Shown: one piece after another, positions 55,961 through 59,915 of the stretch
Layout of the letters: each line of letters begins with the position of its first letter
How positions within the stretch are numbered: position 1 is the first letter of the stretch
Source of the DNA: Acidimicrobiaceae bacterium
GTDB lineage: Bacteria; Actinomycetota; Acidimicrobiia; Acidimicrobiales; RAAP-2
Assembly (NCBI GenBank): GCA_027306605.1
Contig: DAHUZK010000064.1
Location: 1 to 64,000, forward strand
Length of the DNA: 64,000 nt
Reading direction: 5' to 3'
Made by a program: the position numbers and the translations under genes
The notes under the pieces: generated by a model
What the model saw: the letters and a program-made list of their open reading frames with translations, nothing else
The model's database searches: none
Told to the model about the DNA's origin: nothing

Positions 55961-55989
55961 GGTCAGGTCCTGGTCAGGTCCTGGTCAGG
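55961..55989. repeat. 11-bp tandem repeat at end of dprA
   Basis: The unit ggtcaggtcct occurs twice from 55961 to 55982, and a third partial copy extends to 55989, covering the dprA stop codon. Confidence 0.85.
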
Positions 55990-57067
55990 CCAACTCCCAC
56001 CATCCACCGGCATCTCGAGCAAGTCCGCTCCGAGCGAGTCGTTCGAGTGCGCCGCAGAGAGCCGGAAGGGAAAGGCTCGTCGCCCGGAGGAGGTCGTCCA
56101 GAGGAGCCGGGTCAGAAGAGAGCACGGCGAAGACGAGACGCTCCTCCTCAGATGCCGGTTCGGCTCGTTGTCGTGTCGCCACGGTCGCGCCTTCGGGGTT
56201 CTCGGACACGGCGAACGGCGCCGGCTCCACCCCTGCCAGCGAGAGCGACACCAGCACGTCCGTGGCGGAGCACACCGGGAAGGCCCCTTCGGCCAGCAGC
56301 GCGTTGGTGCCCTCGGACGTCGCGCTGCGAATCGACCCTGGTACGGCGCCAACGGGGGCGCCTCGTTCCAGTGCCGCCGCCACGGTGTGGCGGGATCCAC
56401 CTTGGTGCCGGCTCTCGACGACCACGACCACGTCGCTCAGGGCAGCCAGGAGCCGGTTGCGGGCCGGAAATCTCCATCGCTCCGTCCTCGCCCCGACCGG
56501 GGACTCCGACACGATGACGCCTTCTCCGGCGACCCGCTCCCAAAGGCGCGCATGCCGGCGGGGATACGGCTCGCCGAGACCTCCTGCCACCACGCCGACG
56601 GGAGGCGACCCCGCGCCACAGGCTCCTTCGTGCGCAGCAGCGTCGATGCCGAGGGCGAGTCCCGAGACGATGCACACGCCGGCAGCCGACAGATCTGCTC
56701 CCAATTGGGCCGCGACGCCGATCCCGTAGCGGGTGGGGGCGCGCGTGCCCACGACGGCGACCGTGGCCGGCCACTCCAGAGCACCAGGATCGCCGAGGCA
56801 GAAGAGGACTGCCGGTCCCTCCGGATCCTCCCGGAGCCGTCGGGGATACCGGGAATCGCTCTGGAGGAGGACCGTGATCCCACGACGGACGTGATCGTCC
56901 CAGATCTTCGCCACTTCTTCGGCGGTCTGACCGGATTCGTCCGACGCCCGGGCCCAGGTGGCCGACGGCGCGCCGTCGGCGAGAAGTCTGCGCAGTGTTG
57001 CGGGCCCCACCGCGGGGGACAAGGACAGGGCAACGGCATACGCGGCTTCCGGAAGTGCAGCGCTCAT
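55985..57067 (-). CDS. dprA: DNA-processing protein DprA
   Basis: The 360-residue protein has the Rossmann-like DprA core: VAVVGTRAPTRYGIGVAAQL, IVSGLALGIDAAAHEGA, RFPARNRLLAALSDVVVVVE and GSRHTVAAALERGAPVGAVP, plus a C-terminal winged helix. It loads RecA on incoming single-stranded DNA during transformation. It overlaps yifB by four bases. Confidence 0.95.
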   Translation of the reverse strand: MSAALPEAAYAVALSLSPAVGPATLRRLLADGAPSATWARASDESGQTAEEVAKIWDDHVRRGITVLLQSDSRYPRRLREDPEGPAVLFCLGDPGALEWPATVAVVGTRAPTRYGIGVAAQLGADLSAAGVCIVSGLALGIDAAAHEGACGAGSPPVGVVAGGLGEPYPRRHARLWERVAGEGVIVSESPVGARTERWRFPARNRLLAALSDVVVVVESRHQGGSRHTVAAALERGAPVGAVPGSIRSATSEGTNALLAEGAFPVCSATDVLVSLSLAGVEPAPFAVSENPEGATVATRQRAEPASEEERLVFAVLSSDPAPLDDLLRATSLSLPALCGALERLARSGLARDAGGWWELA

Positions 57068-58533
57068 GCAACCACCGCCGCCGTGCCGGCGCGGAGCGAC
57101 AGCGCCTCACTGACATGGAGGAAGGAGATCTCGTCCTCTTCCGCCAAATCGGCCAATGTCTGCGCCACCCGCGAGATCTTGGTCAGCCCGCGCGCACTGA
57201 GCGCGCCTTCCCGGAGCCTGGTCGACAAGAGATCCGAAGCCTCCGGCGCCATCACCGGTAGCGCATCGGCGTCCCGCGCCGCCGCCCGGGACCGTGCCGC
57301 TGCGACCCGAGCGGCGACTGCCTCGGTGGACTCACCCGGAACTCGAGACAGCAGGTCCTCCGGATCGGGCCGGCTGACTGGGACGACCAGATCGAACCGG
57401 TCGAGCAGAGGATTCGAGATCCGGCGGCGGTAACGCGCTCGGGTCGCCACCGAACAGGTGCAGGCTCCTTCGTAGACCCCCTCACCGCACGGGCACGGGT
57501 TCATGGCCGCGACGAGCAGGAAGGAAGCAGGGAAGGTGACCGTTCCCCCCACTCGGTTGACTCGAATGACGCCCTCCTCGAGCGGTTGCCGGAGGGATTC
57601 GAGTGCCGCAATCGGGAATTCGCCGAGCTCGTCCAGGAACAGGACGCCATGGGTTGCGAGGCTCACCTCACCGGGTCGCAATGACCAGCTGCCGCCGCCC
57701 ACGAGCGAGACGATCGACGCCTGGTGGTGTGGCGCCCGGAACGGTGGTCGCTCGAACAACGCAGTCTCGGGAAGAGCAGCCCCCGCGGCTGAGAAGATCC
57801 GGGTCACCGTGAGAGACTCCGGACGCGTCAGTGGTGGAAGCAGCCCGACGAGGCGCTCGGCCAGCATCGTCTTGCCCGAGCCCGGAGGGCCGATCATCAG
57901 CAGGTGGTGACGGCCGGCCGCTGCGACCTCCAGCGCGCGACGGCCGAGTATCTGCCCTCGCACGTCGCGCAGGTCCGGCTCGGTGGTCGAGCGGCGCGCC
58001 CTTTTGGGTTCAGGCGGAGGCGGCCACGCCGCCTGCCCGCGCAAGATGCGGACGAGGTCGGCCAGGGTCGCCACACCATGGACCGTGTTTCCTCGGACCA
58101 GCGCCGCCTCCGCCACGTCGTCGAGCGGAACGACCAATTCGGGAGCATCAGTGGCGTCGGCGAGGGCGATCATTCCCGGGACGTGGCGTAGCGATCCGTT
58201 GAGGCCGAGTTCACCGCAAAAGGCCAAACCCTCGGTGCAGGCCGGGCTGAGAGCTCCTGCTGCGACCAAGAGCCCGACGGCAATCGGGAGATCCAGGCCC
58301 GCTCCAGCCTTCCTGACCCCCGAGGGGGCCAAATTCACGGTGACCCTGCGCAACGGCCACTGAAGGCCGCTCGAGAGCACGGCAGCACGGACGCGATCGC
58401 GTGCTTCTCGGACTGCTGCGTCGGGCAGACCCACGATGGTGAACCCGGGGAGCCCGTTGGAAACATGAACTTCCACTGAGACGGTGCGCCCGACGGCGCC
58501 GCTCAGGGTGGCGGATGTCACTGAGGCCAGCAC
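57064..58533 (-). CDS. yifB: YifB/ComM-family AAA+ ATPase (Mg-chelatase-like)
   Basis: The 489-residue protein has an N-terminal domain VEVHVSNGLPGFTIVGLPD, Walker A GPPGSGKTMLAERLVGLLP, Walker B HGVLFLDELGEF and a CPCGEGVYEGACTC cysteine patch. ComM helicases widen recombination tracts during DNA uptake. It forms an operon with dprA. A large dyad array lies 134 bases upstream. Confidence 0.94.
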   Translation of the reverse strand: MLASVTSATLSGAVGRTVSVEVHVSNGLPGFTIVGLPDAAVREARDRVRAAVLSSGLQWPLRRVTVNLAPSGVRKAGAGLDLPIAVGLLVAAGALSPACTEGLAFCGELGLNGSLRHVPGMIALADATDAPELVVPLDDVAEAALVRGNTVHGVATLADLVRILRGQAAWPPPPEPKRARRSTTEPDLRDVRGQILGRRALEVAAAGRHHLLMIGPPGSGKTMLAERLVGLLPPLTRPESLTVTRIFSAAGAALPETALFERPPFRAPHHQASIVSLVGGGSWSLRPGEVSLATHGVLFLDELGEFPIAALESLRQPLEEGVIRVNRVGGTVTFPASFLLVAAMNPCPCGEGVYEGACTCSVATRARYRRRISNPLLDRFDLVVPVSRPDPEDLLSRVPGESTEAVAARVAAARSRAAARDADALPVMAPEASDLLSTRLREGALSARGLTKISRVAQTLADLAEEDEISFLHVSEALSLRAGTAAVVA

Positions 58534-58868
58534 GATGATTGAACGGTCGGCACCTCCCCGATTTGTGTCGCCGAGTTCCGTCCCTCTCGGAATTCTCGAG
58601 TCTCACGGGCCCAGCGTCTGCAGTCTCAGTCAGGGCAGGAGCCGCTTCGTAGGGTGTTTGGACCAGCTGTATATGCCACCTCCGGCCCTTGGCATCCGGG
58701 TGTATACGCGCGCCACGCCGCCCATCCCCGGGGGCGACCGGCTATCGCGCGTATACAGATGAAGGTGGGACGAGGGTCTGCATATATACAGGGAAGAACC
58801 GATTCAGCGTGCCGTGACCTACACAGAGGCACGAGACTTGTCGGCGTCGGGAAGACGCCCGGGGCGGC
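58534..58868. other. 335-base gene-free region upstream of yifB
   Basis: No credible gene is seen here. The stretch holds the symmetric dyad array at 58667-58791 and presumably the yifB-dprA promoter. Apparent small frames through it simply read the TGTATA repeats. Confidence 0.7.
58667..58791. promoter_or_regulatory. 125-bp symmetric array of four TGTATA-type sites
   Basis: Two 46-base arms (58667-58712 and 58746-58791) are inverted around a 33-base centre. Each arm starts outside with ctgtatat and ends inside with tgtatacgcgcg; the outer eight bases and inner twelve are identical between arms while the sequence between them differs. Within each arm the two TGTATA motifs are 33 bases apart, about three helical turns. 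This looks like four binding sites for a dimeric or looping regulator upstream of yifB-dprA. The protein is unknown. Confidence 0.6.
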
Positions 58869-59915
58869 TCAGTCCTGGGGCGGGAGTTGGTCGCGAGGCG
58901 GCCGGGCCGGGGTGGCGACCGGCGGAGGGACGGAGCCGTTGGTGCTCGCGTCCCCGCTCATGTTCTCGTTGCGAAGGGTCGAGAGAAGGACCTCGGCCGC
59001 GCCCATCAGGCTTGTCGCCTCGTAGGGGACGACGACCTTGGCGTTGTCCGAAGCAGCGATGTCCTGGAGCGCCCGCAACTGCAATACCGCCAGCGTGTGC
59101 GGGTTGATGGCCACTGCGTCGATAGCTTCCAGGCGGGCCGCCTCGCCGGCACCGCGCAGCTCGAGCGCTTTCCGCTGGCCCTCGGCCTGCAGCTCGAGCA
59201 CGCGCTGCTGGGCCTCCGCTCCCAAGATGGCCGATTGCTTGGCTCCCTCGGCCTCGAGCACGGCGGACTGCTTGCGTCCGCCGGCCTGGTTGATGGCGGC
59301 CTGCTGCTCGCCCTCGGACTTCAAGATGGCGGCTCGCTTGTGCTGCTCCGCCTCCTTCTGCTCCGACATCGCCTGCACGACGTTCATCGGCGGCGTGATG
59401 TCGAGGATCTCGATCCGGTTCAGCCGCACCCCCCATTTGGCCGTCGCGTCGGCCATGTGGTCCTGCATCCGCGAGTTGATCATCTCGCGCTCGCTCAAGG
59501 CTTGGTCGAGCGAGAGTTCCCCGAACACCGCCCGCAGGGCGGTCCGGGAGAGCTGATCCACGGCCAGAGCGAAATCGTTGATCTCGAACAAGGCGGACTT
59601 CACGTCAATCACCTGACAGAAGATGGTGGCGCTGACCTGCAACGAGACGTTGTCCTTGGTGATGACCGCCTGCTGGTCCCCCGTCATCGGGAACTCGCGG
59701 ACGTCGACCTTGTCCATCCGATCGATGAAGGGAACGAGCCAGTGGAGGCCGGGCTGGGTGACCGCCCGGAACTCGCCCAGACGCTTGACGACACCGACGC
59801 TCCCCTGCTGCACGATCTTGACGCAGCGGCTCACCAACCACAAGCCGGCGGCAACCACCACGACGCCTGCTGCCACGCCTACCAGTACTGCCTCAGCCGC
59901 CGATCCGAGCAACAT
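58869..59915 (-). CDS. SPFH/band-7 (stomatin/prohibitin-like) membrane protein
   Basis: The 348-residue protein has one N-terminal membrane helix (about 8-30), a band-7 domain (CVKIVQQGSVGVVKRLGEFR, MINSRMQDHMADATAKWGVR) and a long coiled coil (AEGAKQSAILGAEAQQRVLE). The tail is Pro-rich. Such proteins form membrane scaffolds and usually pair with NfeD proteins; a short NfeD-like gene lies directly upstream. Confidence 0.92.
   Translation of the reverse strand: MLLGSAAEAVLVGVAAGVVVVAAGLWLVSRCVKIVQQGSVGVVKRLGEFRAVTQPGLHWLVPFIDRMDKVDVREFPMTGDQQAVITKDNVSLQVSATIFCQVIDVKSALFEINDFALAVDQLSRTALRAVFGELSLDQALSEREMINSRMQDHMADATAKWGVRLNRIEILDITPPMNVVQAMSEQKEAEQHKRAAILKSEGEQQAAINQAGGRKQSAVLEAEGAKQSAILGAEAQQRVLELQAEGQRKALELRGAGEAARLEAIDAVAINPHTLAVLQLRALQDIAASDNAKVVVPYEATSLMGAAEVLLSTLRNENMSGDASTNGSVPPPVATPARPPRDQLPPQD

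Follow-up and report, generated by a model that had tools for sequence, protein, structure and literature searches.

The mirrored TGTATA array upstream of yifB in this window, by which is meant the whole stretch of 64,000 nucleotides that was analysed, is most likely not a switch for DNA-uptake genes but a putative docking station for a DNA-binding protein, because it belongs to a set of 18 arrays that lie behind unrelated genes in one species, with none found in the relatives that were searched. The 18 arrays would be lineage-private intergenic stations for a putative sequence-specific, oligomeric DNA-binding protein, and this explanation as a whole, with the insulation or organisation of gene ends included, is given about an even chance of being right. 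Eighteen arrays that follow one grammar and occur in one species only would give a clear example of how a genome acquires a new class of protein station, the relatives still having short gaps free of arrays at the corresponding positions. Were the protein to be found, the arrays would become testable for gene-end insulation or chromosome organisation.

The layout of the array (Table 1) is as the first-pass annotation described it, with four TGTATA sites and two inverted arms of 46 bases around a 33-base centre all recovered from the sequence and from a repeat search, the latter returning an inner inverted repeat of 12 bases whose copies are 33 nt apart. The spacing of 33 bases between the motifs of one arm, also part of that description, is seen here between the cores and is 33-35 bp across the family. 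In the arm logo, conservation begins some 20 bp beyond the outer TGTATA and some 52 bp beyond the inner one, which makes the conserved part of an arm longer than the first-pass annotation had it, and the unit scores stand against a background that reaches a maximum of 7.8 across 114,000 positions. TGTATA occurs four times in the 64-kb window, every time within the array, where 0.55 occurrences are expected and at least four are seen in 3 of 100 shuffles; this count is by itself mildly unusual, and it is because the geometry of the array recurs that chance is excluded, TGTATA-N27-TGTATA (at up to two mismatches) being found genome-wide as inverted pairs against 0-1 matches per strand in the control. 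The left arm of the window scores 40.3 bits against the family profile (E 8.7e-10, with the profile partly built from the same arm), and the right arm is weak at 8.8 bits. The start codon of yifB is 135 bp from the nearest array core, and the SPFH/Band 7 gene on the other side has its 3' end toward the array at a distance of 79 bp.

Table 1. Parts of the array in the window and the genes beside it
Feature	Position	Strand	Score or basis
Whole element, comprising both mirrored arms, the centre and the weak third unit of the right side	58648-58845	.	arm logo, unit scan
Left arm, CTGTATAT...TGTATACGCGCG	58667-58712		
Left arm, outer unit core TGTATATG	58668-58675	+	unit score 25
Inner unit core of the left arm, TGTATACG, lying 33 bp from the outer one	58701-58708	+	unit score 23
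Centre, bounded by the inner cores (span from inner to inner 57 bp)	58709-58749	.	
33-base centre separating the 46-base arms	58713-58745		
Mirrored right arm, CGCGCGTATACA...ATATACAG	58746-58791		
Right arm, inner unit core TGTATACG	58750-58757	-	unit score 19
Right arm, outer unit core TGTATATA	58783-58790	-	unit score 15
Core of the weak third unit in the right arm, TGTGTAGG, 35 bp beyond the outer core	58818-58825	-	unit score 10
dprA	55985-57067	-	Pfam PF02481, PF17782
yifB, Mg-chelatase-like AAA protein	57064-58533	-	Pfam PF01078, PF13541, PF13335
SPFH/Band 7 protein gene	58869-59915	-	Pfam PF01145

A search with the arm profile finds 18 elements in the host genome, a draft assembly of 3.36 Mb that is 81% complete. 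The pair TGTATA-N(20-40)-TGTATA has 10 matches in this genome against none in the control, with exactly 27 bases between the sites in eight of the 10, and a longer pattern with two mismatches allowed is matched at about 18 places, mainly as inverted pairs. The family profile, a sequence-only profile of 67 columns built from 29 arms, recovers the same 18 elements, with most arms at E 1e-12 to 1e-5 and weaker arms within the same elements. These scores are partly by construction and the informative result is that no further element appears, the best match outside the 18 having E 0.28 among the best 150 first-look candidates that the profile scored, a set that very weak copies could have missed. 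The first-pass annotation had named a dispersed repeat as the finding that would undo its reading, and this proves half right, as there are indeed 17 other arrays, but the copies have motif positions and spacing in common and not their overall sequence.

Thirty-five arms align without gaps and, when read toward the centre, carry GGGG, T.TCTGTTC, CTGTATAYG, sCGnCTCGGGG, aTTG, pyrimidines and CTGTATACGCG, the consensus being GGGG..TCTGTTC...CTGTATAYGsCGnCTCGGGG..aTTG...CTGTATACGCG. Each arm has two to four units spaced 33 or 35 bp apart, or 68-70 bp where one is apparently missing, and in most elements two mirror-image arms flank a centre of 30-74 bp. Not every member of the family is mirrored, as the element C3a (L042:9624-9765) has four units in a single orientation and no opposite arm. 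The centre spans 30-32 bp in nine elements and 35, 42, 42, 44, 53, 57, 74 and 74 bp in the others, with the commonest lengths (30-32, 42-44, 53 and 74 bp) differing by approximately whole helical turns. The eight non-modal spans lean toward one face of the helix (Rayleigh p of about 0.04 at 10-10.5 bp, for eight spans and read off a scan of several periods), which is only suggestive because the 57-bp span of the window copy fits poorly and several periods were tried. A helical period of conservation along the arm was also tested and is not significant.

The arrays appear to be private to the host lineage in every collection searched. The exact two-site pattern is absent from 171 other genomes of the family and the one-mismatch pattern from four congeners. 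With the profile, 60 near relatives yield three matches, all of them marginal (E 0.05-0.08), and 396 further genomes from the order, searched under stricter filters, yield none at E 1e-4. The three-site pattern is without a match in viral contigs and has 11 single, scattered matches in a GTDB-wide scan of about 85,000 species, in unrelated and mostly AT-richer lineages, both collections being ones that may exclude the window's own genome; the arm profile finds nothing in the 11, which are read as chance. A close variant of the three-site pattern fits 7 of the 18 elements in the host genome, therefore a comparable set in another genome would probably have been picked up. No description of TGTATA arrays or of a comparable repeat family was found in open-licence papers.

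Where the same gene pairs occur in relatives, the gap is generally shorter. Between mutM and smc there are 393 bp in the host, 40 bp in the congener G003 and 41 bp in the congeners G004 and G002, with the added segment in the host longer than the array itself and the intergenic sequence strongly diverged between species, and as three congeners have the short gap a gain in the host lineage is likelier than repeated loss. The MerR gene and yfiH, by their coordinates, are about 300 bp apart in the host, whereas the distance in G003 is about 50 bp and that in G002 about 20 bp; purA and clpB are separated by 493 bp in the host and by 135 bp and 151 bp in members of two further genera. At the locus in the window the evidence for added DNA is less strong, because in G020, which belongs to another genus, the SPFH gene adjoins yifB across a gap of the same order that has no array. 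Fourfold sites of host and congeners are 0.32-0.59 identical for all compared genes except a 38-residue purA fragment, thus the split between them is old.

The view of the first-pass annotation that these are protein-binding sites rather than a transcribed hairpin is supported by the family, in which the motif columns are kept and complementarity of the spacers within loci is not. Among the 17 two-armed elements, spacer identity is 0.440 within a locus and 0.400 between loci (permutation p 0.043), and without the elements C46 and C7 it is 0.405 and 0.394, with the motif columns still conserved. Between elements the motif columns match at 0.686 and the low-information columns at 0.302, where composition predicts 0.292, a contrast that is partly built in as columns were picked by information content; the low-information match at the level of composition means that no background homology is left between elements. 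It could be proposed that the arrays work at the RNA level, as bidirectional transcription terminators or 3'-end hairpins, given that they sit behind 3' ends and that four of them fold far better than shuffles (z -8.0 for C46, -6.9 for C7, -5.0 for C81 and -4.5 for C6). This is very unlikely, as for others the folding is no better than that of shuffles (z +0.6, +0.6, -0.3 and -0.8, and -1.2 for the window copy), there is no terminator-like site at the array of the window, nine array loci gave no match to Rfam, and pairing within loci is lost except in C46 and C7, with no excess of complementarity elsewhere that would mark a conserved covarying stem. The arms of C46 (L050:5514-5641) and C7 (L045:9936-10109) are nearly perfectly complementary, unlike most of the family, possibly through a recent inverted duplication or conversion. 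Because the motif columns alone are conserved and arm pairing is not maintained, protein binding is favoured over RNA hairpins, and the reading of the 18 elements as a family of putative protein-binding arrays is well supported.

Whether such a protein would control the adjacent genes can be judged from where the arrays lie. All but one of the 18 are behind the 3' end of a gene and, with gap types taken from a purpose-made codon-usage gene predictor, 12 are in tandem gaps, five in convergent gaps and one in a divergent gap, which becomes 11, six and one with an ORF missed beside C52 that would make this array convergent. Divergent gaps make up about 40% of the intergenic length in the fetched sequence and convergent gaps about 7%, and the binomial probability of one or none of the 18 arrays being in a divergent gap is about 0.001. 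The exception to the 3'-end rule is C6 (L044:9099-9199), the sole array between divergent genes, which are lon and a DUF3039 gene. Neighbours of the arrays, as identified by Pfam, include yifB, the SPFH gene, pntB, an aldehyde dehydrogenase, lon, purA, clpB, smc, mutM, ppk2, a cyclophilin, a prolyl oligopeptidase and a P450, together with an aminotransferase read as hemL, a GNAT gene read as rimI and a laccase-domain gene read as yfiH, whilst panB and rpsF were read from translated gene starts alone. The control of competence that the first-pass annotation proposed is not supported because the flanking genes are unrelated; the 17 other arrays adjoin unrelated housekeeping genes, with convergent gaps used and divergent gaps avoided, and the array it looked for upstream of yifB in relatives is absent from all 23 yifB loci, three congeners included, so a competence regulon was rejected. 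A conventional transcription-factor regulon, with the arrays as operators of the adjacent downstream genes including yifB-dprA, has in its favour the 11 or 12 arrays in tandem gaps, hence upstream of a gene and 105-289 bp from its predicted start, and the common operator layout of paired sites some three turns apart. It is nonetheless unlikely, since the five or six arrays in convergent gaps have no promoter to control and one lies in a divergent gap, the neighbours have no function in common, and the orthologous genes in relatives are without arrays. The MerR gene beside the C61 array was considered as the source of the binding protein and is not favoured, because the array-free congeners G002 and G003 have the same gene.

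A mobile-element origin is a serious rival to the docking station, although in itself it is thought somewhat improbable. It would make the arrays non-autonomous, MITE-like elements, with arms that bind a transposase or recombinase encoded elsewhere and with insertions tolerated behind genes. MITEs and similar small non-autonomous elements are short and intergenic and have mirrored ends, and the arrays are like them in being short, intergenic, mirrored and extra DNA relative to relatives, the host gaps at mutM-smc and MerR-yfiH holding about 250-350 bp more; the confinement to one species, the unrelated neighbours and the avoidance of promoter regions also fit with insertion. However, the copies are unlike each other outside the motif columns, an all-against-all BLAST shows no common ends or flanks, the number of units and the length of the centre vary, and no gene is flanked by a pair of arms, as the matched arms are all within the 18 short elements. 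An autonomous relative around a transposase gene is not among the profile matches in the 81%-complete assembly, from which such a copy could be missing. That elements are alike at motif columns alone argues against recent mobile-element copies, and old sites kept by constraint, or sites assembled separately, would fit the sequences better. If the arrays are mobile, then a family of elements can retain its binding grammar while all other sequence identity is lost.

Other known systems share some of these features. The clusters of parS, multi-site operators and other protein-spreading or partition-type sites have repeated, spaced recognition units at a modest number of chromosomal sites, and the arrays are similarly modest in number and built from repeated spaced units, but they are not linked to promoters and have 33-bp units in mirrored arms behind 3' ends. 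Such an arrangement, with two mirrored arms of 33-bp units behind 3' ends, is not known to us from any described system. In REPs a perfectly complementary GC-rich palindrome comes after a GT(A/G)G head, and they occur in tens to hundreds of identical or near-identical copies with a cognate Y1 (IS200/IS605-like) transposase, RAYT; binding of several proteins to REPs and BIMEs has been reported, and roles in chromosome organisation and transcription termination have been suggested for them (PMC2817692). The arrays are also species-specific and intergenic with repeated units in an inverted arrangement, but differ in their TGTATAYG cores, in having no complementary palindrome per unit, in not keeping a hairpin and in being 18 elements alike at motif columns alone. 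A REP/RAYT system was rejected, as the Y1 transposase PF01797 has no match in the host genome (G000, 81% complete). The congener G002 has two Y1 transposases (PF01797; L111, L112), which were not found in G000, G003 and G004.

For the docking station, it is envisaged that subunits of the protein would bind along each arm and that the two bound arms would meet across the centre. More loosely, the complex may bridge or coat the DNA at gene ends and insulate transcription units, as a roadblock or as a topological boundary, in which case the arrays would separate gene pairs such as mutM and smc, 40 bp apart in congeners; just as loosely, its role may be in organising the chromosome rather than in the switching of particular promoters. 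As to function, the insulation of gene ends or the organisation of the chromosome would be the first choice. The full proposal, put forward tentatively, is a lineage-private system for insulation or chromosome organisation, with an oligomeric protein that would recognise the 33-bp units and bring the mirrored arrays together at some 20 gene ends. The station and a mobile origin are compatible, as elements may arrive as insertions and then be kept for binding.

A further motif is found at one of the neighbouring genes. Directly upstream of the smc start, GCGACCCTA or GCTCAACCTA/GCTCACCCTA is present in each of the eight genomes for which the two genes were aligned, reading TAGGGT or similar toward smc (L091-L094, L096-L099), and it looks like the -10 element of a putative short-leader or leaderless promoter.
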